Assembly (NCBI GenBank): GCA_905221605.1
Contig: CAJNDS010002726.1
Span: forward strand, 124,001 to 188,000
Reading direction: 5' to 3'
Length of the DNA: 64,000 nucleotides
Origin: Symbiodinium natans
Taxonomy: Eukaryota > Sar > Dinophyceae > Suessiales > Symbiodiniaceae
The position numbers and the translations under genes are program-made. The notes under the pieces were generated by a model. The model did no database searches. It was given only the letters and a program-made list of their open reading frames with translations, and had not been told where the DNA came from. Below, piece by piece: positions 8 through 14,016 of the stretch (the first letter of the stretch is position 1; the number at the start of each line of letters is the position of its first letter).

Positions 8-43
8 GTACAATCTCAGCTGGTCAACGTGCAGAAGATTGAG
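8..43 (+). CDS. VTWG gene exon 1 (first visible)
   Basis: Reads VQSQLVNVQKIE, the end of one repeat. It follows AG at 6-7. The intron opens with GC at 44. Phase 0 at both ends. The GGDS half of this repeat must lie upstream of the window. Confidence 0.8.
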
Positions 44-1995
44 GCTGCAGACAGGTTTAATTAAAGGGTCGATGGACAGTTTCAGGATGAGTCCGGGAAG
101 CCCAAGGCCACATGTCATCTCCACTGCAAAGGTGGTAGGATGGGGCCAGGCTATGCTGTTTTCTTGGGGGTCCGGGTCCCGCAAGCCAGTCGGTGGTCTT
201 GTGAACAAGGGGGTGTTGGAGAATTTCGGCAGTGATGGCAGTCTGCATTTCGAATCTCAACCCCTGCACATCAAGTCCACAACCTGCAGTCCCAACAACT
301 CACCGGCCTCACCGGCTCAAGAGCCGTGTGCACCTCGGCTCGCCGAAGAGGCTTCCCGGCTTTGAAGAACGAAGGGCGCCCTGCAGCAAGCAAAAGCCAT
401 ACTTCAAATCCGCGGATATCAGGACGTGCTTCGGATTCTGAAAGGACGCCCCACACTGCCGAAGTCCAAAGAAGCCTCATCCCTCGGCCAGCCTGTCAGG
501 TTTCGGCACCTTCACACGCCCAAATGCTTGGCCCGCATAGTTTTGAAGCCTTATAAGCCCAAAATGCTTGGCCCGGATAGTTTTGAAGCTTTATAAGGAA
601 TCTTGAATGAAAGCCCATTATCTCCCCAAGCTTGGTGGTGAAGGCCACATTGCGGGCCTTTGCGGGTATCAAGGCGGACGGTGCTGTGGTAACATGGGGC
701 GACTGGGCCTGCACTTGCTGTGCTGGTTGGTGCGTTGATGCTTATTTCGGCTTGGGGATCTTGTCCGGGGTGTGGGGGGTTCAGGTTGATCCAAGATTAC
801 CAATCTCTGCATGATCACTGTAGGGCTGACTCAGGCTCTGGCTTGTGATGTAGCTGACTTCTCTGCGTAACTCCCAAAGCTGTGTGGTGAGCAATTTAAA
901 CTTTGCTGGGTCGTGTGAGGGGTGTCGAGGTGTTTATGTCTGAGGCCTCGCAAAGCAAGCAGTGCAGTGCATACCTGCCACACGCAGACAGTAGGCCCTG
1001 TTCTGTTAAACCTTCATTCAAGCTCCGAGTCCGCCGCATTCTGAAACTCAGGCCTGAGCCTGAATGACGGCAACTAGCAAGAATGCTCAACGTTCTGCGT
1101 TGCTACAGACCCTTACTCCCTCAATCCGTAATCCCACCTTCTTAGGCGATCCCGTGTCTGGTGGAGACAGCCGCGCAGTGTGTGACAAGCTCACAGACAT
1201 CCAAGGAATTCAGAGTGCCTTTGCTTACGCTGATGCTTTGTGTTGCTGTTGTCTGCTTGGCGGTGCTGGTCTTTGTTCTATGCTATCATGGTATACTTGT
1301 GCCTGAAGAATCCCCTCGCCTCAGCCCCAAGCCCTTCTCTTACATCTGTGCACCGTGAACTGAGAATGCACTGTTGCATGGCGTATTGAGGGCAGTCATG
1401 CCATGGGCAGCTTTACATGCAGGCGGTTTTGCGCTGCCAGCTCGGGGTTTTAGTCGCGGTTTTTTGGCCCCCAATGAGCCCCAGGCACGTCTCGGGCTTT
1501 TGCAGCGCTGCGGAGCGATGGGACCGTGGTTGCATGGGGCTGGGCGAACTCAGGCGTCATGAGCCCGAGTGTCTCAAAGGGCGTACAGCTTTGGGCTAAC
1601 TGCGGCTAACTGGGCTTGATGAAGCCAGGTTTCAAGGGAGTTTGTTTTGGAACGATGTCTCTCTGTGTGTGCGTAGAAGCATCATGGTTTTCGAGACTGA
1701 GGGGCATGAGTTTGTAATTGGTTGGAGGAATGTTGGCTTTCGGCTGTCAGAAGATTCCATGAGCCCTTATTCCCCTTCCTTAGATGTCAAATACCAGATA
1801 CCACTTGCCAAATATCTGAACCGTACTAGTCAGCAGTCATCCCCATCGACTTTTTGGGTCCCACTGGGCCCTGGGTTTAAAGTCTCGATCTCTGGAGGTG
1901 CAGAATGCTTTGGAGAGGCCTAGCTATGCATGGTGAACAGAGTTTAAGGCACCAATTAAGGGGACCACGGGAGACTGGTCTTGAGCCTCAAAACG

Positions 1996-2030
<35 letters not shown>

Positions 2031-5000
2031 CTGTCTACATCGGAGGCGGGAGCAACGCTTCCGTAAGCCACCTCCTCACCGATGTGCAAGTCTCTCGGCC
2101 GGCTCACGTTGATTGCGGCAGTTCTTGTTTCGTGTTCTGCCTTTTCAAGTTTTTTAAGCCGTGGTGATGGAAGTGCAGTATCAGAATCGCGTCCTCAGGC
2201 TGCATGTGTTGGCGTAACCTCTGCATCTGAGCCACCAAAACTCCGGCCTTCCTTTGTCCTTCGCCCGAAAACCCACCACCTCTGCAATGCAACAAAAGGA
2301 GCTGCGCAGCTCCTTTGGCGCCTTTGCTGCCCTCCGGGCAGATGGCCGTGTGGCCAGGGCCTTGGCATTCTTGGCCCTTGGATGTTCCCCTTGGATGTGG
2401 CTGGATGTGGCTGGACGTAATTTTGGTTGAGGGGAAGCTTTGGACGGGGCGCTACGGCAGCCAGAGCATTTTCACTGCCTTGCTCCTGAATTTGAGTGGA
2501 GCTCAGGCTTCAGCTTCAAAGATGGGGGGTCGAGTCCCAGTTGAACTTCCATCGAAGGGCTGACTCATATTCTGTTTGTAAGAGAGCCGGTCCTCAACTC
2601 AAGCCTTTTCCTTTCAGGGGACAATGCTGCCCGGAAAATCAACATTAATCAGCTTATAAGAATTGTTAACAGCCAAGGCACGTGCAGCAGGAGTTCCCGG
2701 GTTCCTCTTCTTATTGTATTTCGCTTCCTCGGCACTGATCGTCATTATGTCAAGTACACATCAGCCCATGCCTGTGCTTCGGCCATTGGTCCGCGTGAGT
2801 CATCTCTCTCGCAAACATCATAGTTGTAGTTCTGCTCAACCTTCGATTTCCAGCATCCGCCCTTGATCAATGGCATGCACTCAACTACCAAACCATTGAC
2901 CCTAAACAGCAACAAGTCCTAAAGGGCGCCCCAAAAACCCATCAGCCGTAAACAGCACTGAGGTCACCTGGGGCTCTCCGGACTACGGCGGCGACACCGT
3001 GGACATGCAGGCCGGTGTTCGAAGGTTGCAGCATGTGGCTCAAGTCTGATAAGTGCAGAGTATCAGGATTGAGTTCATGTTTCCGGTGTTTCTCGCCGAG
3101 GGAGGTAGTAGGATTTCGGGCTTATAAGTTTCAGGGTGATGTTCAGGGTGGGGGCGGGTTGGGTTGGGGTCGACATGCTTTAGAGACTAATGCATCCTGC
3201 TTCGTAACCGACATGCTGCGCTAAGCCAGGATTGGCAACTTTCCACAAGTCCTTTTTGTGCGTCCTCACATTCTGCTCTTTGGACACTACGGTGTGGACT
3301 AGTGGATGGGCAACCCGTTATGTTTGTCAACCTACTAATGCAGACCTCCAACTAGTGATGGTAGTGTATCCCACGAGTGCATCCCACGATAGCGGGAAGT
3401 GTCGCCGGTACAGAAGGAAAACGCTTCCCGGACTGCAGCGACATGTTGCTTGCACTGACAGAATCGTACAGCACCCCAGACGGTGGGCCCCCGCTCCGGC
3501 CCCCCGGCCTCCGTTTTCTGAGGTCGTCCCTCGCCCGGAACAGTCCGGATTTCAAGCACGGAGTCTTTGCATTAGCAGCTCAAGCCGTCACGGGCTGCAA
3601 CTCTAAAACCTGGAAAACCTGAAGCCTGACCAGCCTTCAAGGCACCCCGACAGCTCAAGGCCCAGCAGTGGAAACCATTCCTATACTACCTTTACACGAG
3701 TCCCCAAACCCAAGGGTACAACCTTAGGGGTCCAAGATATGGTCCGATGAGAGTGATGCGCGTTATCTCTCTCTACAAGTGCAAGACATCGCTGGGTTCA
3801 GTGCGAAGGCATGGGCATGGATTTTCACCCTCCGGGCGATTGTTCCTACGCAGTCATTGGTGCCTTTAGCATTCATCCCTGCCTGCCAGACAAACAAAGC
3901 CCACACATTTTTGCAGGATGAGCTTGCGGATGTCGCCAAGATCCATGCATCGCACGCTGCCTTCGCGGCAATCAAGAAGGACCCAGCGCTAGAAGCACTG
4001 CAGTTGCGAGTTGCTCGCTTTATGGCCGCTTTCGCATGGAGGGACCAGACGCTGTGGGCAATGCGGGCATTTGGCATGCCGTGCAACAGGGGGCCGTCGT
4101 TCAATGTTTGTCGAGTCTTTGCCTCAGGATGGAACTGTGGTCACCTGGGGTGGCACGGACCATGGTGGCAACAGCTGCCCGATGCAGGACCGGACTGCGT
4201 TTGGACGTCCTTCCGAGATCCTGCGGATTCTCAGGATGATGGTCAAAATTCTGCAGAAGTCATGCCTTTCAGGGTTAGAGCACGAGCCCCTTGATGCGAG
4301 CGTGGATTCTGTGGCGTTCCATTGAACCAATGAGTCGGTCGTTGGCGGTGGCCTGTAGCAAGCACGCGCCTGCCAGCCATGGCATGGTAGTGGCATGGTT
4401 ATTGGCCTTACGAGGCAGGCAGACATGCATTTTCAGAGGGTCACACATTAGGGTTCGAAGTATGTCATGTGGTCTGAAGCCCATTACGTTCTGAACATGT
4501 TTTTGTTGCATGGCAGTGGGTTCCTGACCTTCCAGAAGCCACTGACCCGTCCCACCCGTCTACATAAATCGCCAACTCCTCTTTCAAGCCCGACGGCTGG
4601 CACTTGCAGGATCAGCTCGTGCAGGTTTCGGAGCGACCTGGCTGAAGGAATGTGATGTTTGTGTAGTACACTTCGTCTCTAGAAGTAGTTTAAGACGGTT
4701 TGGCCTACATGTGCCTCCGCACTTGCAATGAACCACTCTGGAGATTTTCCCTTTCGGTAGTGATAATATCTTGGGGGATGCCACCAGGACGTACCTTTAG
4801 TTTTGTGACGCATGAGCCTATCCTGTGTGTGCATGTGGGTATAAGCGGGTGGTGCGGGTGGTGCGGGTTTGTGGGGTGGCGTGCGTGTGCGTGTGCAGGT
4901 TTTTGTTCGGGGGACGGGGGGGGGGGGGGGGGCTTGCTGCGGTTCGGATAGAGCATCTACTTTGTTCCATAGTGACGCTCCATTCCGATCAGAGTTGGAG

Positions 5001-8000
5001 ATCTAACAAGGCAGGCCCTAGGCACTTATTGAGTAACAGCAGCCGTGAATTTGGCCACCTTCGGCGTAAGCGCGTGCCCAGAATCGGACAGTGTCGGACC
5101 TTGCTTCAACTCTGAAAACTAGCAAGTGAGCCCTATAAGCCGCAAACGACAAATCCAGCCTAAGGGTCTTTTGCACTGTCCGGGCATTCGCCGCCCTCCG
5201 CACTGACGGCAGCGTGGTGACCTGGGGTAGCCTGGCTTTGCGAGGAGGTTTCCGGTGGGTGTAAATACGGTTTTAGATCGGATTGAGGAAAGACTTGGGT
5301 GGATGAAAAGACCGCTGTCGGCGTCGCTATGTGTCGAGACGAGCCCAAGGCAGTCGTTTCAGGGGTGCTGCGGCTTCTTAGGCTTCTGGCATCTTGCTCT
5401 CAGCATGACCACGAGCTGTCGCGAAAGCAGAATCACCCTCAGAATCCCAAGAATCCGCCGGCTTCCGCGTTCGCTAGCCTGGTGGGCTCAACCTCACCGT
5501 TTAGTCCCCTCCCAACCACCGATTCGGCAAATTACTCTGATAGCATCCAAATATTTAGTTTACCAACCTTTGGAACCCTGTTTTTTTTGAGATCTGAGTT
5601 TCCCCACCCCATGCCAAATAAGAAGCAACTGCTGCAAGGATACCCAACCGATGGTGGAGACAGCAGCTACGTGCAGGACCCGAGCGACCCGCCCTTGATT
5701 GTTTCAGCTCGTTGGTTGGAGCACGGCTGGAAACGGAAAACATCAGCAAGCGGTGCGAGTATGCGCGAGTTATTTCACGATCATTTTCAGGGATCCTGAC
5801 ACGAAGAATGATGTCCAGTGAGACAGTGCACACCTAGAACTAGTAATCGCATCTTCAGCAAACCGCATCTTCAGCAAACACCCGGTTCATGGCGGGTGGT
5901 CTGGTTTGCAGCTGGATCTGCGCCATATGGCCGACCCGCTGGCACTAAGCACAGCAAGCGTTCAGGCCTAAGCCGGGCCTAAGCCCCCATCAAGCTACCG
6001 CGCAGGATCAGCTCCAGAACGTGCAGCACATTCAAGGCTTGGGGGCAGTTGGAAGATGATCCAAAGAGCCCCTTTAGGTTTCAAGATTTTGGCGCGAAAA
6101 CCCTTGATGTTTTGACTGCTTGATAATCCCCACGGCCTACACATTGTCAAGGGCATGATCGTGAGGTAATGTGAGGTTGTTGAGCGCAACCTTCGCCTTC
6201 AAGCGGCCTTCGCGGCTTGCCCGTAGCTTCAGCTGCAGAGCGTTTCCGCAGTGTCAGCAGCAAGACGCAGAATGTCAAGAGGGGTTTCCAGAGCCCATTG
6301 TGCAAATCGAGGTCCTAGAGGTCATTAATGTTGTCTCCTGATTAGTGTGACCCCCCCCCCCCCCCCCTCAACAAATGGCTCCCGCGCTTTAGTGTGGGGG
6401 GGGGGGGGGTGAAGGGGCGGGGGCAATTTTGGGGGGGGGGGGGGGGTCTGGCTTTATATGATTTTAAAAGGGATGAGCTCGTATGAATTTAAAAGGGATC
6501 CATATGATTTTAAAAGGGGTGAGACTGTATGAAATAAAAAGGGATCCATACGATTTTAAGAGGGGTGAGTTTATATGAATTTAAAAGGGTTTGTATGATG
6601 TTAAAAGGGATCCACATGATCTTGAAAGGGATGAGTTTAATTGAATTTAAAGGGGATCCATCTATCCCAACCAAGCCAGCCCGCAAAAGAAAATATAATT
6701 CCGGGGGAGCAAACTTTTTATATTATACGGCATTCGGGCAGCTGCTGGACTACCCCCTTTTGAAATTTGATTGCCTGGCCTCGGTACAAAAGAATTTAAT
6801 AAGTAAATCTTAGTTTTGGGGCTGGCCTGGAGACTGAAGATTTCAGGGCCTGACAACCTCAGGCTCAGTTCAGAAGCGATTTCTAGACAACAACGCCATT
6901 CAACAGCCTCGCCGAAATTTTGCATCGCCCGATTTTTTTTAACAATTCCGGGGGTCCTCCTCAAATGGATCCATCTGAATCATTTTTGGGTTTTTTTCAC
7001 CATTCCGGGGGCCCACACTAATCAGGTTGCAGGTCTTAAAGGTCCTGAACCCTATATACAAGCCCTTCAAATGTTTCAGCCCCTAAACGACCCCTGTAGA
7101 CCCGGGGCAGGTAACTTGGCCGCCTTTGCTGCCATCCGCGCGGATGGCCACGTAGTGACCTGGGGCGCCTCCACGCAAAGTCAGGGAATTCAGAGGGGGA
7201 AGTCCCATTGGAAGTCTTCTTCTGGCTTTGAGGGCCTGTCAGGGCTTGTATAGAGTTTTAGGGTCTGGGCTCAGGGTTTCAGAATCTTGGTTTTAGGGAG
7301 TTACTCGCAGGATTTGCGGTTTCTACATTGTGGGCGGAAAGCGTTTGCATCTTGGGCTCACAGAGACGACGTTTGCCTGAAAGAGGGTTTGTGTGCAGGG
7401 GAATGATGGTCAGCTTCAGACAAGAGCCAACTTGGTAACTAATGATACGTCACTGCTACATGCCTTGGATTGTACCATTGTGGGTTGGCCCTTTGCTTGA
7501 CGTTTGGGCCTTAACTTGGCAGTTGGCTGAGGCTATCCTGACTATGGCGGTGACACTTGGCAGACAGGTTTGTCCAAGTGGCATTGCGCAACAAGCTTGG
7601 CTTGACCGACTCAGGGAACTCAACATGGTTTTTCAACTGGGTGGTTTTATTGAGAAGTTACCTTATCCCACCCAAAGAGCGAGAGAGCAAGGACAGTGAG
7701 GCAGTCCAGGAACAGCTCACTGGCGTCTGCCAGCCTCTCGACTGCAATATCAGAGTTGATTGAGGGCTCCTTGGGGCATCTTGGGTTGGGGGGGGGGGGA
7801 ATTTTTCATTTGGCTTCACCCTGCCTAGGTCCGAAAGCACTTCCCATGTCCTCTGATTGGGGGGGGGGGGGGGATCCGAAGGCAATACTTGCCAAGCATT
7901 TCAGGACGTAGACAGAAGCTGTTCTTTGATTGTGCGACGCTACAAGGCTGTACACGTGTAGAGGTATTCCCTGAACTTCCTCTAAAAGTTGTACCATGTT

Positions 8001-11000
8001 GTACCCTCCAAACCGGGTCCAGGCTTGGGGGCCTGAGCTTTCTTACAGAGGGTACTTGACCTCCCCCGTAGGCAAGTTTTTCACAAACGCTTGCGAAGCC
8101 GATGCCAAGGCCCCCCTTAGACTCCTCGACCCAGCTGCTGGGGTTCGGGTGCTTTTTGAGGGTCACTCCCGCCTGCAGAGTACTCCGGCCACTTCTGAGT
8201 TGGGGCCCCGAGAACGCCTGCCCCCAGCAAAAACCTCTTGGACGCTCGAAAACCTCTACAATTTGTTTCCAAGTGGAGCGAAACCCCGAGCCTTCTCAAC
8301 GTTTCTGCTCTGACGTTCAAACGAGGATCACGGCCACGTCTCGGGCCTTTGCAGCGCTCAAGAACGATGGGGCCGTGGTGCTCCTTGCCTTCTGGTTCGG
8401 AGGGTCTTTTGGGCTTCAGGGCCTTCACGGGCTGTAATTAGAGCGGATTCGCGGTTCTCAAATGTTCGAGCTTCTGAGTGCAAGCTTGAGCTTGTTTTTT
8501 GTACTTGCTTTGGTCGGGCTGAGGAACTAGAGAAAGGTTGTGCTCCATAGATGTTCTGTATCACATGATCAGAGCACGTCCTGTGCTGCCACGTGCTACG
8601 TACATTGGGTCCAAGGTCTGTAAATAATACCTACTTTGGGCTATTTGGAGCCTTAGGGTAAGTGTATTCTGTGCATGTTCACGTTAATGTTACCTCCCAA
8701 AACACGAAAATCATTGCAAGCGAGTTGACATGTGGGGCTCCTCCAAGGACGTGGGGCCACGATGCTGAAGGTGGCAACTCGACGTGGGATGTATACCGCA
8801 GGTCTCAGAACCGGGGTTGCTTTAAGGAAGGGCGTCACGAGCGACGTGCTTCGAAGTTGAGACTTTGACATTTCCAAGACATTTGAGCTCGAAAGCTGAA
8901 AAGATTTCAGTGTCACTTCGAAATCCCAACATGTCGAGCTAGAGGTTAGAAAATACGTGAACCTAAGCCGCTCCACTGTTAAAGGTCAAACTTGAAAAAG
9001 TTTCAAACCCCTCAAAGTTCATACTTTTGAAGAGTCAAAAAACTCGAGCTCGAGCGTCTCTTCTCAAACTCAATCTCCAAACTTTCGCGCTAAAAAAAAG
9101 GTGAAAGCTGTAAGTTGGCGCTCGACCATAAGCTTGAAAGATCTGGAGAGTTTCAATTTCGAAGCTCGTTCGAAATAGAAGGTTAGAAGATTCCATGCCC
9201 GTTCGAGTTCGCGAGTTCGAGATTGTGAAGCATGACCAGTTTGCTCCGAGTTTGAGAGATTCCCCGCATTGAACGTTTCGAGTTCCAAAGTTCGAGATGT
9301 TGAAACTTTGAAAGCGAGTCACAACGCCTTTGTCGCTCCTCGCGGGCAAAAGTTTCGTTCGTTCAGCCAGTGCCATGAGTGCGTGAAGAATGTACTTCCA
9401 AGTGGATGAAAGGGGGTTTCGGGTTTAGGGTTTAGCGTTTACCTAGATCACAAACCGGGTTGCACACCCAAGTCCCAATCGAACACCCGAAGCCGTAAAC
9501 CCTCAACTCCGAACCCTATAACTCTATAACCTTAAACCCTGATGTCGGCCCCGGGGAGCTCCGCCGCTACCGATCCGCCTCGGCGGCCTGCAGATGTCAC
9601 GTCGTTGGGACTTGCTTGAGGGTTTCGTTCTGTCTCGCGTCTTTTCGTTTTCGCGTTCACGTGCTGTGTGAACCTTGTGACGCTCAAGATCTTCTTGTCA
9701 AACTTTCCACCTTTCAAACTCGTGCCGGTCGAACTTTCAGGCGAATTTCCAAATTTTTTCCTCAGTATCAAGTGTTTTGTGCTCAGGGGGTGTCAAACGT
9801 CAAAGTTTGAAGCCTGCTTCAATCTCAGAAGGTCTCAACTTTTAAACTCCTGACTGACTTTTTCCGAAAGCCGGTCCCGCGGTGTTTGCTCTCATCCGCA
9901 TGTGGTTGATCTAGAAGTGTCAAACTTTTAGAGTCCCTCTCGCTTCACACGCTCGAGCTCGGGAAATCTGTCAATCTTTCAAGCTCCGAACTTCCGAGCT
10001 CCATGTCGTTCGTCTCTTTCATTCTTCAAAGCTTCAAACTCTCAAGCTCCACAGTACCAACAGTTGTTTTCACATTCCGAACTTTCAATGGTGTTTGCAA
10101 AGAGTACTCGTGACACCTACCGCTCCCTTGCTTCGAGAATGCCAAAGATTCGGTCCTGTTAAAGTGTGGGTTTTCCTGTAAAGCGATGTTGAGTGTGTAG
10201 GTTCTGTAGGCCCCAAAAGAAACCAACTTTTGCATGAGGAAGTTGTGAGCCTAGTGGGAAGCCAAAGGCTGTGCGACTCGGAGATTCGCCACACCCAGGG
10301 TCTAATCCGGCTCCTTCAACTCTAGGGGAGTCCTCCCGAAGAAGCTGAAGTCTGCGACGAGCCAGACTGTTCCATCAGCCTGATCACGGGTGCACCCGTA
10401 TATTTTCCTTGATATACTGGTCTATTTCCTGAACAACCTTTCGATCAACGGCTTCTTGGTTCACTTTTAGACCCTGGAGTCCACGTCTTACCCATGCACG
10501 CGCCTTATAAAATACATTGGCTTTAACCGCTCGCTCGTTTATTCACGTTCTTTCGTTCACACAAAGCCCCATTGGAATCATGCACTGCGTTTATACATGT
10601 TATCGAAGGGCTTTAGCGTGTCGAGGCCCCTTCATGAGCGGAACATGACCATGTCAACCCTGTAACTATCCAGAATCTGAACATCAGCCAACCTGCTCCG
10701 ATTAAAAAGGAAGAGCCATTGAGCCCGGGTGTCGCCCAGGCGACAGCCGCTCCGTCCAGGAGCGTTTGGTTGGCGTTTGCGCTTCTCTGCTTAACCACAT
10801 GTCCTTCATGGCGGCGTTCGCAACCTTGAGGTTCCAATGGCGTCAGACGTTTCAGGATCAAGAGGTTCCTTGAGGGGATTTTTTGGGGTGACAAAGGCTC
10901 TGACAGTACCCTCCCAATGTCCCTGAAGTCCTTGAAGCTGTCCGCAAACCCGATAGCCCCACCTTTGAAGCCTCCAACCATTGCCACAAACCCCGGAATC

Positions 11001-12018
11001 CCCTAACCTACGGCTCAAACCGTAGCAGCTCAACTCGGCGAATCTCGGTGGTGCATTCAAACGCGCTTGGCCTCGGATCTCTGATCACCTTCACATCTTC
11101 TTAAAGCCATGGCTTGATTTTTCGACCTCTGTAGCCCTGCCGAGGACATCCGCGCGAGTTGCGGTGCATTTGTGGCCGTGAAGGCCGTGGCTCGGCGAGC
11201 TCCAAGTTTTTGTTGTAGGGCTGTGGTAGACTAATGGTAATTAGGTGGAAAACTTTTGGGCCTGAGGGTTCCAAGGCTTGGGGTTGAGATTTGCAGGCTC
11301 AGGTGTTGCATTCTGGTCTTTTGAGGTGCGAAGCCCTCTCTTATATACTGTATCTGTTTCTGCCGACCCTTCCGGTCGGGCTTCTGTGTTTAAGCTTGGT
11401 GCAAGCTTTTTATCTTGACCGGCTGCGGAGCCTGTAAGGTTTGGCGTGTCAGGTTCAGTCGCAGCCTGTAAGGTTTGGCGTCACAGCAACAATCGCTATC
11501 AGAGTCCCGACATCGCAGGCCTCGTATTTTTCCCACCGCAAGGATGTACAGGTTTCCAAGCCTGTCTCTCCGAAGACACGCAGTCCAGCCGAGGATGGCA
11601 CGGCCGTGACCTGGGGCCATCCCCTTTGGGGCTTCTTTGCTGCCACCGAGTTAACAGTTTCAGCTGGGGCTCATACACAGCCGCATATAGATTATCAACA
11701 CATGTTTGTGGCGTGTGTGGCCCTAACACGTTTTTGGCTTGTGCGGGCCTAGAGTGTCTCAAGGGTGCCTCAAGCGTGAAAGCGTGAAACCCTCTGAATT
11801 CCTTGTGCCCGTGGGTACGAGGTGCAAGTTTTTTGTTTGTTGGAGCTTTGAAGGGTCAAGATCTCTGGTTGCAGGGCCGTTGAAGTTTAGGATTCAGGGT
11901 TGCTGCGTTCGTTCTCCAGATTGCACAGGGCTAACATCCGAAATCCCAAGCAGAGAATTCAGTCAAGTTCCTTTCAGGTGGCGACAGCAGCGACGTGCGA
12001 GACCAGCTGGTGAACCTG
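8..12018 (+). CDS. VTWG-repeat protein gene, 21 exons, partial at both ends
   Basis: Gene span including introns. Twenty-one blocks, each preceded by AG, join in frame (987 nt, 329 codons, no stop) into about eight copies of a ~41-residue repeat. Its pattern is x-I-x-A-T-x-R-A-F-A-A-[LIV]-[KR]-x-D-G-x-V-V-T-W-G-x-P-x-x-G-G-D-S-x-x-V-Q-x-Q-L-x-x-V-Q. The repeat resembles one I recall from many dinoflagellate proteins and looks RCC1-like (blade-type); its function is unknown to me. Introns of 140-2333 nt cut almost every repeat. Donors are GC (12), GT (4), GA (3) and one ambiguous. Coding fraction is about 8%. The first exon begins mid-repeat at the window edge, so the gene starts upstream. It may continue into the exons from 14 kb onward. 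Confidence 0.85.
644..698 (+). CDS. VTWG gene exon 2
   Basis: Reads ATLRAFAGIKADGAVVTWG, continuing exon 1 so that the join gives KIE|AT. It follows AAG at 641-643. It ends one base into the Gly codon (phase 1) before a GC donor (GCGACT). This is the clearest single repeat signature at the left end. Confidence 0.9.
1146..1214 (+). CDS. VTWG gene exon 3
   Basis: With the G carried from exon 2 it reads GDPVSGGDSRAVCDKL then TDIQGIQ, the second half of a repeat. It follows CTTAG. The donor is GT at 1215 (phase 1). The intron before it starts GCGA and this exon starts GCGA, a four-base identity at the two splice sites. Confidence 0.88.
1485..1538 (+). CDS. VTWG gene exon 4
   Basis: With the carried A it reads STSRAFAALRSDGTVVAWG. 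It follows CCCAG. It ends at TGG G before GC, the same place and phase as exon 2. VAWG replaces VTWG. Confidence 0.9.
1996..2030. repeat. (AT)n microsatellite
   Basis: Near-perfect TA repeat ending about 16 bases before exon 5. Confidence 0.9.
2046..2089 (+). CDS. VTWG gene exon 5
   Basis: Reads GGSNASVSHLLTDVQ after the carried G. It matches the GGDSxxVxxxLxxVQ half of the repeat, but the usual DPxx residues before GG are missing, so either a tiny exon was missed or this repeat is shortened. It follows GGAG. The donor is GT at 2090. An (AT)n tract ends just upstream, at about 2030. Confidence 0.65.
2299..2352 (+). CDS. VTWG gene exon 6
   Basis: Reads ELRSSFGAFAALRADGRV. The spacing from VQ to AF is seven residues, as in exons 1-2. 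It follows AAAAG. A GC donor cuts between the two valines of VVTWG (phase 0). Confidence 0.85.
2963..3010 (+). CDS. VTWG gene exon 7
   Basis: Reads VTWGSPDYGGDTVDMQ and completes RV|VTWG from exon 6. It follows CTGAG. It ends after the Gln codon before GC. The same site (after VQ or MQ, phase 0) is used after exons 9 and 12. Confidence 0.9.
3917..3979 (+). CDS. VTWG gene exon 8
   Basis: Reads DELADVAKIHASHAAFAAIKK. It follows TTTTTGCAG and joins exon 7 as MQ|DEL. The donor is GA (GACCCAG). The next intron is only 148 nt. Confidence 0.9.
4128..4187 (+). CDS. VTWG gene exon 9
   Basis: Reads DGTVVTWGGTDHGGNSCPMQ and completes AAIKK|DG. It follows CCTCAG. The donor is GA (GACCGG), and the next exon also starts GA, so both junctions read CAG|GA. 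Confidence 0.9.
4610..4632 (+). CDS. VTWG gene exon 10 (23-nt microexon)
   Basis: Reads DQLVQVSE (last codon split). It follows CACTTGCAG. The donor is GC. It is needed to keep frame: exon 9 ends in phase 0 and exon 11 enters in phase 2, and the joined protein has the normal DQLxxV spacing. Confidence 0.75.
4916..4932. repeat. G17 run after GT-rich tract
   Basis: An uninterrupted G run preceded by GTGCGGGTGGTGCGGG-type sequence from about 4826. Confidence 0.85.
5165..5226 (+). CDS. VTWG gene exon 11
   Basis: Reads VFCTVRAFAALRTDGSVVTW plus G. It follows CCTAAG. It ends at TGG G, the same site as exons 2, 4 and 14, but with a GT donor (GTAGCC). Confidence 0.9.
5639..5676 (+). CDS. VTWG gene exon 12
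   Basis: With the carried G it reads GYPTDGGDSSYVQ. It follows CTGCAAG. It ends after Gln before a GA donor, as exon 9 does. Confidence 0.88.
6006..6036 (+). CDS. VTWG gene exon 13 (31 nt)
   Basis: Reads DQLQNVQHIQ plus one base. It follows CCGCGCAG. The donor is GC. The intron after it (6037-7110) holds the long C and G runs and the ATTTTAAAAGGG minisatellite. Confidence 0.88.
6351..6446. repeat. C17 / G14 / G16 homopolymer cluster
   Basis: C run at 6351-6367, G runs at 6396-6409 and 6431-6446. The facing C and G runs could pair as a hairpin. Confidence 0.85.
6455..6662 (+). repeat. ATTTTAAAAGGG minisatellite
   Basis: About nine or ten degenerate units of ~20-23 bases, consensus TATGATTTTAAAAGGGATGAG or ...GGGATCC. 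It lies directly after the G16 run. Confidence 0.8.
6698..7011 (+). repeat. ATTCCGGGGG word, three copies
   Basis: The 10-mer occurs at 6698-6707, 6945-6954 and 7002-7011. GGATCCATCT precedes it at about 6654 and 6968, suggesting remnants of one duplicated element. Confidence 0.6.
7111..7164 (+). CDS. VTWG gene exon 14
   Basis: Reads GNLAAFAAIRADGHVVTWG after the carried G. It follows GGGGCAG. It ends at TGG G before a GC donor. Confidence 0.92.
7532..7560 (+). CDS. VTWG gene exon 15
   Basis: Reads GYPDYGGDTW with the carried G. It follows GCTGAG. The 3' end is ambiguous by one base. Joining in frame to exon 16 needs intron 7560-7699 (GC...GA) or 7561-7700 (CA...AG); neither is a normal pair. 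Confidence 0.8.
7701..7732 (+). CDS. VTWG gene exon 16
   Basis: Reads AVQEQLTGVC plus CA. It gives GGDTW|AVQEQL with exon 15 and VCQ|ITATSRAF with exon 17. The donor is GC at 7733. Confidence 0.8.
8326..8379 (+). CDS. VTWG gene exon 17
   Basis: Reads ITATSRAFAALKNDGAV plus GT of the next Val codon. It follows ACGAG. The donor is GC at 8380. The VTWG part is supplied by exon 18. Confidence 0.88.
8748..8801 (+). CDS. VTWG gene exon 18
   Basis: With the carried GT it reads VTWGHDAEGGNSTWDVYR (Met-free, no stop). It follows TCCAAG. It ends AG before GT (phase 2). The match to GGNSxxxV is good, but VYR replaces VQxQ. Confidence 0.75.
8802..11134. other. 2.3-kb intron with CAAACTTTC/GAGCTCGA mosaic
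   Basis: No exon found. From about 8860 to 10060 short words such as CAAACTTTC, GAAAGTTTG, TTCAAACT, CTCGAGCTC and GTTCGAG recur irregularly on both strands. A short TTTAGGGTTTAG stretch lies at about 9425. The rest has no visible structure. Confidence 0.5.
11135..11183 (+). CDS. VTWG gene exon 19
   Basis: Reads PAEDIRASCGAFVAVK after a split Ser codon. It follows CTGTAG. The phase agrees with exon 18, but the repeat is two residues short between V and I, so a small exon in the 2.3-kb intron before it may be missed. The donor is GC. Confidence 0.6.
11594..11630 (+). CDS. VTWG gene exon 20
   Basis: Reads DGTAVTWGHPLW plus G. It follows CCGAG and completes AVK|DG. The donor is GC. The start could be 11588/11589 instead, adding A-E before DG. 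Confidence 0.82.
11978..12018 (+). CDS. VTWG gene exon 21
   Basis: With the carried G it reads GGDSSDVRDQLVNL. It follows a pyrimidine-rich CCTTTCAG. It may end at 12018 (GC donor) or 12019. It is the last strong repeat block in the window. Confidence 0.85.
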
Positions 12019-12019
12019 G

Positions 12020-14016
12020 CCATTTGAGGTTGCTGCAGCTCTGCATGCCCCGCACAAAACCTAGGAACCTGTCGTTAGCACAGGGTTCGGATATGGTCGC
12101 TGTTCGTCTGGCCCCAATCCATCCTGCGAACACCCCCAGCGTACTGTACTACATAAACAGAGGGGAGTTCATTTTCAGATTGCCAGAGGTTTTTCATTCG
12201 GTGCATGGGCAGAGCAGCAGCTCGGACCTTGGCGCGGAGTGCGCAGCTGAAGAAATTCTTTCGATCTTACAGGGTAGTCTCCAAACTCCCAAGGATTTAG
12301 GACCGCTTGCCGGAAAACAAGTAGCACGGCAGGTTAACTAGATCCTCAGCTCGTTTTTACATGGCACTTCCAAATTGGGTTTACACGCCAGAGCTTTGCA
12401 CAGCACTTATGCCTAGGGCCTAGGATCATGTAGGTTGATGCCCTGCAATGAAGTCTGACACTTAATTGTCCAGGTTCCCAATCCTGCAATGCAGCAGCGT
12501 GTTGGCATAGCTTCTTCTGCTAGATGCCGGTGGTTAGAGTGCCAGCGTTTCGGGTCATTAGGCAGGACCTTGCTCTGCAGGGATACCTTTGAGTCCATAT
12601 TGTTTGCAGTGGAGACTTGGGGCTGGTTTGAAGACTGCCCAGTACCATCTTTCTATGTCCTCGATCCATGAGCATTGCTCTGAGCAGCCAAGAAAGACAC
12701 CTAGGAGACGGAGGAGCGCATCTGCACGGAGCATCGGCTCAGAGAAGGACGTCGCAACTGATCCACTTCCTCCGCTTTCGAGCCTGGAACTTTTCAACCC
12801 GATGGCTCACGCTTCATTTCGAAACTTGTTGCCTCAGATGATTAGGCTGATTACGGTGCGGTACCTGGTCTGTGCCAAGTTCGCACATACACAGGTGTTG
12901 CGTGGATGTGGAAGCATTCCTTGCATCGACCGGACAGCCTTTCTGAGTGTTACATGTCTTTTCATGGTCGTCAATCTTGGCAGGCAGCCTAAGCCAATAC
13001 ATCCACCCAAAACGCTGTCACCTCTCGCTGAATTCGACTGCCTTGCCGTTTTGCAAAGGCAGTGGGGCAAGCAAGGTACGGCTTTTATCGGCTCTGAACT
13101 GCAGATTTCAACCCCGGGGCCCTGGGCTTGAGTTTGCATAGGCGGGGGGGGGGGGGGGGATTCGGTCGGCGCCATGTTGGCTTTGAATTGCTAGAGCGGG
13201 TTCTTTAGTTGCTACGTGCTCCGGAGGATTCGTGATCTTGATGATTTTGCTCAGTATGTCACCGCGTCTCAAGTTTCACGATGTTTGAGTTGAGGGTTGG
13301 GAGCAACTTTAAACTGCCTTTAGCAATGTGAAGCCACTAGCCGCGAGCACCCGGTTCTTTAAAAACGATACCAAGATGTCATAAAGTCTGAAGTCGCCTT
13401 GCTCCACAGAGCTTGGGACGACCTTGCGCAACACCTCGTGCACTGTGCACTGCCGTCGTTCTCCAAGCTACTGTTTCAATAGTTTTCTATCGCTTAGATC
13501 TGCATGACGCCAGTAGCTTTCATCACCCGACATTGTCAGGGAAATGATGCTCTCGAGTTGCGCGGAGTTGTGCGGAGTTGCGCTAGACAATACCATGAGC
13601 GGTGTCGTGCAACTTGCGTTTGCTTCTCTCGAGCCAGAGCACGATCTTTTCCATCCCCGGAGGTCCAAGAAGAAAAGCCAACACACAAAGTCCCAAACTG
13701 CTCCTACTTCATTTTCCTGAAGCACTACGCCAATGGCCCCATTCCTCAGGAATCCTATTTTGCTTGATGTTTCAATTAAGCTGGAGTTAAGCATCCGATT
13801 CCGAGACGCTATCTATCCACCTGCCCATCTATCGATCCATCTATACAAAATATGTATATATATATATATACATACGTAATGTATAGACACATGTTTATAG
13901 GTTGTAATTCCGGGCCCGACTATGTCTAAAGGAGCATGTGAAAAAAGGAAAGCGGCCCGCATCGCTTTGAGAACGGCGTGGGCTTTGCTCTGCTCCCGCT
14001 TTGAAGCGGGAAGCAG
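12020..14016. other. long non-coding stretch between repeat blocks
   Basis: Open frames at 11739-12341 and 12589-13131 lack splice or family support. It contains a G run (13143-13159), an (AT)n tract (13852-13871) and the hairpin at 13987. A gene boundary or G8-domain exons could hide here. Confidence 0.4.
13852..13871. repeat. (AT)n microsatellite
   Basis: TATATA run within ATCTATC-type sequence. Confidence 0.75.

Follow-up and report, generated by a model that had tools for sequence, protein, structure and literature searches.

An intron-saturated RCC1-like repeat gene in Symbiodinium natans and its uncut, part-split and fully split sister genes

A stretch of 64,000 nucleotides of the Symbiodinium natans genome (C2414:124001-188000; hereafter the window) was revealed to carry, at 8-12018 on the + strand, a gene for a 41-residue repeat protein that is cut into short exons by numerous introns. 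This intron-saturated repeat gene (the window gene) is real and belongs to a known kind, many-intron genes with such splice sites being ordinary for Symbiodinium. Analysis of the window together with the genome (759.4 Mb in 2543 contigs) indicated that it is quite probably a nuclear gene of a dinoflagellate of the Symbiodinium type, intact and spliced, whose RCC1-like product has a conserved N-terminal segment followed by ten repeats of 41 residues, and that it holds at least 25 spliceosomal introns, most of which would have been inserted after the repeats had multiplied. Many of its sisters in the same genome are uncut, at least one (L050) is part-split and several are fully split; such a set of copies of one repeat gene bears on the origin of introns, and the contrast is new to us.

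The preliminary description of this DNA had proposed half-repeats in order on the + strand, joined by 20 introns into 21 exons totalling 987 nt (329 codons), with every junction restoring frame and repeat spacing. Ungapped scans of the window with half-repeat queries of 15 and 23 residues, with three shuffles as the null, placed the strong matches in order on the + strand within the first 12 kb; the top B half-repeats, at 656, 5184 and 7122, scored 68-70 against 34 for the best of the three shuffles, and the top A half-repeat, at 1148, scored 61 against 30. A spliced Viterbi aligner using a cyclic 41-residue consensus profile, with GT, GC or GA donors and an AG acceptor, was run with an intron penalty of 18 half-bits; the locus 8-12018 reached 665, on a path still containing some gaps and spurious exons, whereas nine controls (four other chunks of the window on both strands and the minus strand of the locus itself) scored 30-66. 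The consensus, which sets the repeat register, was in part supplied by hand; repeat number, intron positions and ends were not set in this way. A penalty of 8 half-bits yielded a chain with spurious tiny exons and higher penalties were adopted instead, and a profile re-estimated from the first path, in which a spurious exon at 5859-5914 persisted, was dropped. As shown in Table 1, the final model, run at penalty 26 with AG|G as a requirement, comprises 22 exons and 21 introns without an indel, and its 1008 nt from base 8 to 12018 (mean exon 46 nt) read as 336 codons with no stop and no slip of the 41-residue register. The order, the strand and the restoration of frame and spacing were thus borne out, and the protein-to-genome spliced alignment with GC and GA donors, which that description had named as a check, recovers the 22-exon chain. 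Its counts proved short by about one small exon, and the exons are not plain half-repeats, the cuts falling at 14 different positions of the unit.

Table 1. Exons of the window gene in the window, and two introns carrying dispersed elements
Feature	Position	Strand	Basis and remarks
Exon VQSQLVNVQKIE	8..43	+	Final model; first repeat exon inside the window
Exon ATLRAFAGIKADGAVVTW	644..698	+	Final model
Exon gDPVSGGDSRAVCDKLTDIQGIQ	1146..1214	+	Final model
Exon sTSRAFAALRSDGTVVAWGWANS	1485..1553	+	Final model
Exon gGSNASVSHLLTDVQ	2046..2089	+	Final model
Exon ELRSSFGAFAALRADGRV	2299..2352	+	Final model
Exon VTWGSPDYGGDTVDMQ	2963..3010	+	Final model; one of two window-gene matches of the acceptor-before-VTWG pattern
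Exon DELADVAKIHASHAAFAAIKK	3917..3979	+	Final model
Exon DGTVVTWGGTDHGGNSCPMQ	4128..4187	+	Final model
Exon DQLVQVS (23 nt)	4610..4632	+	Final model
Exon eVFCTVRAFAALRTDGSVVTW	5165..5226	+	Final model
Exon gYPTDGGDSSYVQ	5639..5676	+	Final model
Exon DQLQNVQHIQ	6006..6036	+	Final model
Intron with high-copy dispersed element at 6326-7026	6037..7110	+	Final model and genome search
Exon gNLAAFAAIRADGHVVTW	7111..7164	+	Final model
Exon gYPDYGG (20 nt)	7532..7551	+	Final model
Exon DSEAVQEQLTGVC	7692..7732	+	Final model
Exon qITATSRAFAALKNDGAV	8326..8379	+	Final model
Exon vTWGHDAEG (26 nt)	8748..8773	+	Final model
Longest intron (1966 nt), with degenerate dispersed element at ~8825-10124 and short telomere-like tract	8774..10739	+	Final model
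Exon gDSRSVQERLVGVC	10740..10780	+	Final model
Exon DIRASCGAFVAVKA	11145..11186	+	Final model
Exon DGTAVTWGHPLW	11594..11630	+	Final model
Terminal exon gGDSSDVRDQLVNLAI*, TGA 12025-12027	11978..12027	+	Final model; ends near the repeat point where 17 ten-repeat sister open reading frames end

The gene extends beyond the span first described. Four more repeat exons, again without an indel, lie upstream of the window from -1906, and the repeat region in total comprises 402 codons with no stop and 25 introns, 21 of them in the window; the frame is ended by a TGA just beyond 12018. A profile of 23 N-termini from sister genes, run over 227,912 six-frame places, gave its top match at an ATG at -3013 (MHVTVVLLSGQSA; score 14.7 against 9.5 for the next), 3.0 kb upstream, and this exon is likely to be the start exon of the window gene.

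The donors G[CTA] had been imposed by the aligner, the base after AG was left free in a test of the AG|G acceptor, and donor positions +5 to +9 played no part in the alignment. With this base free, AG|G was found in 20 of 24, 21 of 22, 19 of 21 and 19 of 20 window introns at penalties of 18, 22, 26 and 30, respectively, against a background of 0.275 among 777 AG sites, and the four misses at penalty 18 and the single miss at 22 all precede exons or exon beginnings absent from the final model. When 64 donor/acceptor classes were compared, G-N/AG ranked first at 490 and C-N/GG second at 440; the runner-up may be the same introns shifted by one base. The 25 introns use GC (15), GT (6) or GA (4) donors with AG|G acceptors. 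Furthermore, donor position +5 is C in 20 of these 25 (background 0.267, p 4e-8), +5/+6 is CT in 12 (background 0.068, p 2e-8), and G occupies +8 in 14 (background 0.283) and +9 in 13 (0.272). Since the +5 and +6 bases, unused by the aligner, are strongly non-random, these observations supported the splicing of the window gene.

The combination of GC/GT/GA donors with AG|G acceptors found here is of the Symbiodiniaceae type, and both it and the expansion of RCC1 genes are already known in Symbiodinium. In the cited passages of the respective papers (to which all PMC numbers here refer), S. minutum has a mean of 19.6 exons per gene, GC and GA donors, a G after the 3' site and 189 RCC1 genes (PMC4083563), in S. 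microadriaticum donors are GC, GT or GA, there are 21.8 exons per gene and RCC1 is enriched (PMC5177918), and RCC1 is named in a legend on the top ten domains for S. tridacnidorum and S. natans in PMC8045281, which also reports Iso-Seq for the latter. The window gene shares with these introns the GC and GA donors and the G after the 3' site (PMC4083563, PMC5177918), while its exons are much shorter than the genome-wide mean of 109.5 nt in S. microadriaticum (PMC5177918) and the donor motif GNNNCTNGG is visible in its introns and in those of its sisters. Over the window gene and five split sisters (L045-L049), this motif, G[CTA]NNCTNGG, has C at +5 in 52 of 73 introns, unlike the usual GTAAGT.

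When the genome was searched at the protein level, 235 matches were obtained (150 scored of 2528 candidates), and among the matches listed the majority fall within open frames some 400-580 residues long; such a search favours uncut copies and gives no ratio of uncut to split genes. Thirty-six frames were collected, which, less two unrelated frames of L006 and L042 (L021 again), left 33 uncut sister open reading frames (ORFs) with 281 gapless repeats; the count of repeat number also leaves out L019 and L037. Exactly ten repeats were present in 17 of these 31 sister ORFs, nine in 11 and eight in three, at a spacing of nearly always 41 residues, and in all 17 ten-repeat sisters the last repeat is cut short by the end of the frame after 26-33 residues. 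The spliced product of the window gene consists of ten 41-residue repeats and a tail of 28 residues. Because this repeat number and tail match those of the uncut sisters, which were not used to build the model, the model was supported independently, and an intron-saturated repeat gene missed by ORF finders, as had been proposed, is the best reading. By eye, a few sister ORFs form near-identical pairs. Some sister matches sit in very long open frames, namely those at C480:536983, C22:198004, C480:425149 and C1839:322673 (2066, 1400, 1259 and 1073 residues, respectively).

The spliced product matched the Pfam family RCC1_2 (PF13540) in six stretches, with 97.2 bits against a cut-off of 22 (E 3e-28), and remained below the cut-off for the RCC1-like domain PF25390 (WD40_RLD; 80.6 bits against 150). 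Judged by family membership, the repeat protein would adopt a propeller-like fold. RCC1_2 repeats are common to the window gene and the RCC1-like genes of Symbiodiniaceae in the cited part of PMC4083563; the window gene differs in its 41-residue unit, its ten copies and its 25 repeat-region introns while many sisters are uncut. A search of PDB returned a weak match of the repeats to the RCC1-like domain of HERC2 (4l1m, E 0.0015). HERC-type E3 ubiquitin ligases are defined by a C-terminal HECT domain. In contrast, no HECT match was obtained in the spliced window product or in the two sister ORFs scanned (L012 and L015), and the frame stops after the repeats. The N-terminus resembles a ubiquitin-like domain by eye only, no Pfam ubiquitin-family match at E 0.1 or better being found in L012, L015 or the start peptide of the window gene. 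Matches to lipocalin and similar Pfam families, some of them above cut-off, were taken as chance on repetitive sequence.

Split sisters were sought with the pattern AGGTNACNTGGGG-N13-GGNGGNGAY, which places an acceptor directly before VTWG, where uncut copies have T for A. The pattern gave 36 exact matches in the genome and none in a backward control; two of these belong to the window gene, and the remaining 34 are spread over 28 further contigs. In 36 loci (some overlapping) around uncut copies it was absent, whereas the uncut form occurred there 237 times. Six of the 28 contigs were examined (L045-L050), and split genes were found in all six on the predicted strand, with AG|G in 47 of the 48 introns of L045-L049 and in five of six of L050; the paths contain a few small indels. 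The sole miss in L045-L049 comes from an exon of L045 (3948-4029) that reads telomere-like DNA and is doubtful. L050 (C1949:435000-444999) is part-split: an exon of 453 nt (4178-4630), covering almost four repeats with small gaps, stands beside short exons. Because the search pattern selects one intron position, counts of positions among these sisters are biased. The family is therewith a good place for watching the birth of introns, the ten repeats of the window gene serving as parallel recorders of insertion sites, and the specialist will find interest in the uncut, part-split and fully split set and in two telomere-filled introns of L049 described below.

The 25 introns of the window gene lie at 14 positions of the 123-nt unit, with at most three per repeat. 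If the ancestral unit likewise had at most three introns, at least 11 positions would therefore have arisen after the repeats multiplied, a count that sliding by a few bases would lower. Sites of the form [A/G]|G are found at 18 of the 25 introns; relative to such sites, the sharing of intron positions between repeats (13 pairs against 7.5 expected, P 0.07) is not a clear excess, and the position data fit independent insertion at proto-splice sites with some inheritance possible.

Duplications of exon sequence were counted at the junctions of 73 introns, 25 of the window gene and 48 of L045-L049. Exact repeats of at least 4 bp were present in 35 of the 73 (16.9 expected) and of at least 6 bp in 14 (2.3 expected), and in 45 of 73 the second base of the donor is identical to that at position 2 of the exon that follows, against 23.0 +- 3.8 after shuffling (window gene 12/25, L045 8/10, L046 8/9, L047 4/10, L048 3/8, L049 10/11). 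After addition of L050 and removal of two doubtful L045 junctions, the corresponding values were 36 of 77 (18.0 expected), 14 of 77 (2.5) and 47 of 77 (25.0); without L049 the same adjusted set gave 26 of 66 (14.0), 10 of 66 (1.9) and 37 of 66 (21.6). These duplications point to intron gain by insertion. We propose that most introns were inserted after the repeats had multiplied, that each insertion would hit an AG|G[C/T/A] site and duplicate a few exon bases, and that the two copies of the duplicate would serve as donor and acceptor, splicing thereby restoring the old frame in any phase; the perfect rejoining of every junction would have its cause in this double use of the target bases.

Several results weigh against intron gain of this kind in an intact gene. 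Relative to any G after the cut, the 13 shared pairs of positions exceed the 4.2 expected (P 0.002), and some introns may be older than the repeats. The null for the duplications was drawn from mismatched pairs and does not hold the sequence context of each position fixed, L047 and L048 show no second-base excess, and the six introns of L050 carry junction repeats of only 1-4 bp. Taken alone, the window gene gives a weak signal (at least 4 bp, 9 of 25 with 4.8 expected; at least 6 bp, 3 of 25 with 0.5; second base, 12 of 25 with 7.4, P 0.03), as would fit old introns. Its 25 introns have no terminal inverted repeats (inverted-repeat length 4.24 against a null of 4.67) and almost no similarity to one another, with one 21-bp match among them. 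In addition, the N-terminal exons were only partly resolved, a profile path scoring 58 against 42-53 in six shuffles.

In L049 (C2101:645000-654999), two introns are filled with telomere repeats between exact copies of the exon sequence at their junctions: intron 6029-6138 is 75% telomeric between 15-bp copies and intron 6209-6410 is 94% telomeric between 18-bp copies. By the gene model these look like fresh intron births. Among random pairs of sites in L049, a repeat of at least 15 bp occurred in 625 of 200,000, pairs joining telomere repeat to telomere repeat included. The 11 sister introns that are at least 50% telomeric have a mean junction repeat of 6.3, against 3.5 in the other 37 (p 0.04), a difference driven by the two L049 introns. 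Tracts of TTTAGGG or CCCTAAA exceeded 20 shuffles in all 48 introns of L045-L049 and in five of the 25 window-gene introns, there mostly by one short match, while none of the 3552 exonic bases of the five sisters lay in a tract as defined in this analysis. In the L045-L049 introns TTTAGGG tracts number 58 in the 5' half against 20, and CCCTAAA tracts 70 in the 3' half against 31; this bias is suspected to stem from selection that disfavours TTTAG|GG acceptors and favours CTAAAC branch points. Telomere repeats as a mark of introns as such were dropped, given their abundance throughout the genome, where the 28-mer (TTTAGGG)4 has about 1.7 million overlapping matches, and around uncut copies, where 203 tracts were counted in about 102 kb (partly overlapping) against two in the last 51 kb of the window. 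L050 is poor in telomere repeats (six exact 14-mers), and the stretches examined differ sharply in general, some being rich in them and others, such as the window, nearly free.

Neointrons of Daphnia are reported to arise from blunt or staggered double-strand breaks with repeats of 4-12 bp (PMC4202315, cited passages), and they have direct repeats of exon bases across the intron in common with L049, which differs in its 15 and 18 bp and its telomere-repeat filler. Mammalian interstitial telomeric sequences are inserted at breaks, sometimes with target duplication, the cited passages giving none in human exons (PMC7215372); in contrast, the tracts of L049 interrupt the coding region and, according to the gene model, make up introns. 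A limited search of the open literature, covering titles and the openings of abstracts, found no report of introns born from telomere repeats. On a more far-reaching reading, which we put forward as tentative and would sooner doubt than accept, any DNA inserted with target duplication at an exonic AG|G[C/T/A] would become an instant frame-restoring intron because the spliceosome tolerates GC, GT and GA at the donor and AG|G at the acceptor; telomere repeats picked up at staggered breaks would be a direct source of introns, fresh in L049, and the window gene an older, saturated product. If the two L049 introns are recent and spliced, they would represent a one-step route from break repair to intron and would show how loose donor rules can render a genome rich in introns.

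The opposite direction, in which ancestral introns were lost from uncut sisters that arose as processed retrocopies of spliced mRNA, leaving the window gene as the old parent type, appears unlikely, although it is the strongest of the rival explanations. Retroposition is reported to be rampant in dinoflagellates (PMC11453091, cited part), the window gene has diverged further (51.0% identity among its repeats, compared with 51.5-83.0%, median 70%, in the 31 sister ORFs), and intron positions are shared above the any-G null. Against this stand the spread of the introns over 14 positions, no repeat having more than three, the part-split state of L050, the fresh appearance of the two L049 introns and the finding of a single spliced-leader-like relic (3 mismatches) in 44 loci and the window, most sister loci having only 1.5 kb of flank.

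The codons of the window gene bear on whether it is a recently dead copy, in which exons and splice sites persist and no product is made. The codons of the window gene depart from the sister consensus at 34%, 23% and 55% of first, second and third positions, those of the pooled sisters at 15%, 14% and 32%, and 71% of the 636 single-base codon differences among the repeats of the window gene (pairwise, not independent) are synonymous, compared with 56% within sisters and 24.5% for random changes. Given that most differences between its repeats are synonymous, that none of its 402 repeat codons is a stop, that the final model needs no indel, and that the splice motifs are intact, the C-terminus matches and an N-terminus is likely, a dead copy is improbable, even though the window gene has diverged further than the pooled sisters, carries dispersed elements within its introns and is predicted only to be transcribed. 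The divergence among its repeats may reflect introns blocking their homogenisation. One-to-one orthology of repeats between the window gene and the sisters was tried and failed (diagonal -0.027, P 0.94, 17 sisters).

Introns that are copies of one introner transposon family, as in S. microadriaticum, have a similarly small probability. The introner there makes 4-bp duplications, has inverted repeats and co-opts a donor (PMC9860276, cited passages), and the excess of exact junction repeats of at least 4 bp noted above would fit such an origin. The terminal inverted repeats and many near-identical copies that define an introner element were not found in the window-gene introns; terminal inverted repeats did not exceed the null, the single 21-bp match was the only one among them, and genome matches to the DNA of the 21 window introns were short repeats or dispersed elements within introns (39-40 places scored per search). 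Introners were also studied by Roy et al. 2023, as related in a review (PMC11453091). Finally, a chain that is an artefact of permissive splice rules joining random relics is next to inconceivable: GT/GC/GA and AG are loose signals and a low intron penalty does add spurious exons, but the controls reach at most 66 against 665, the same architecture recurs in the sister ORFs and the unused donor bases are conserved.

Among other features, phage relatives were discarded, both candidate records coming from one Synechococcus phage, with 29% identity, and no relative of the query was confirmed in the viral contigs searched; the window contains no Rfam family or tRNA. The dispersed element at 6326-7026 had 86 full or partial matches at 68-95% identity (39 scored of 1532 first-look candidates) and includes an internal repeat array at 6456-6655, and the matches of the degenerate element in the longest intron have roughly 67-90% identity. 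A 65-bp repeat within an intron (8597-8665) recurs elsewhere in the genome at 90-94% identity, and a stretch of about 50 bp at 3681-3756 occurs at 39 other scored places with 85-100% identity.

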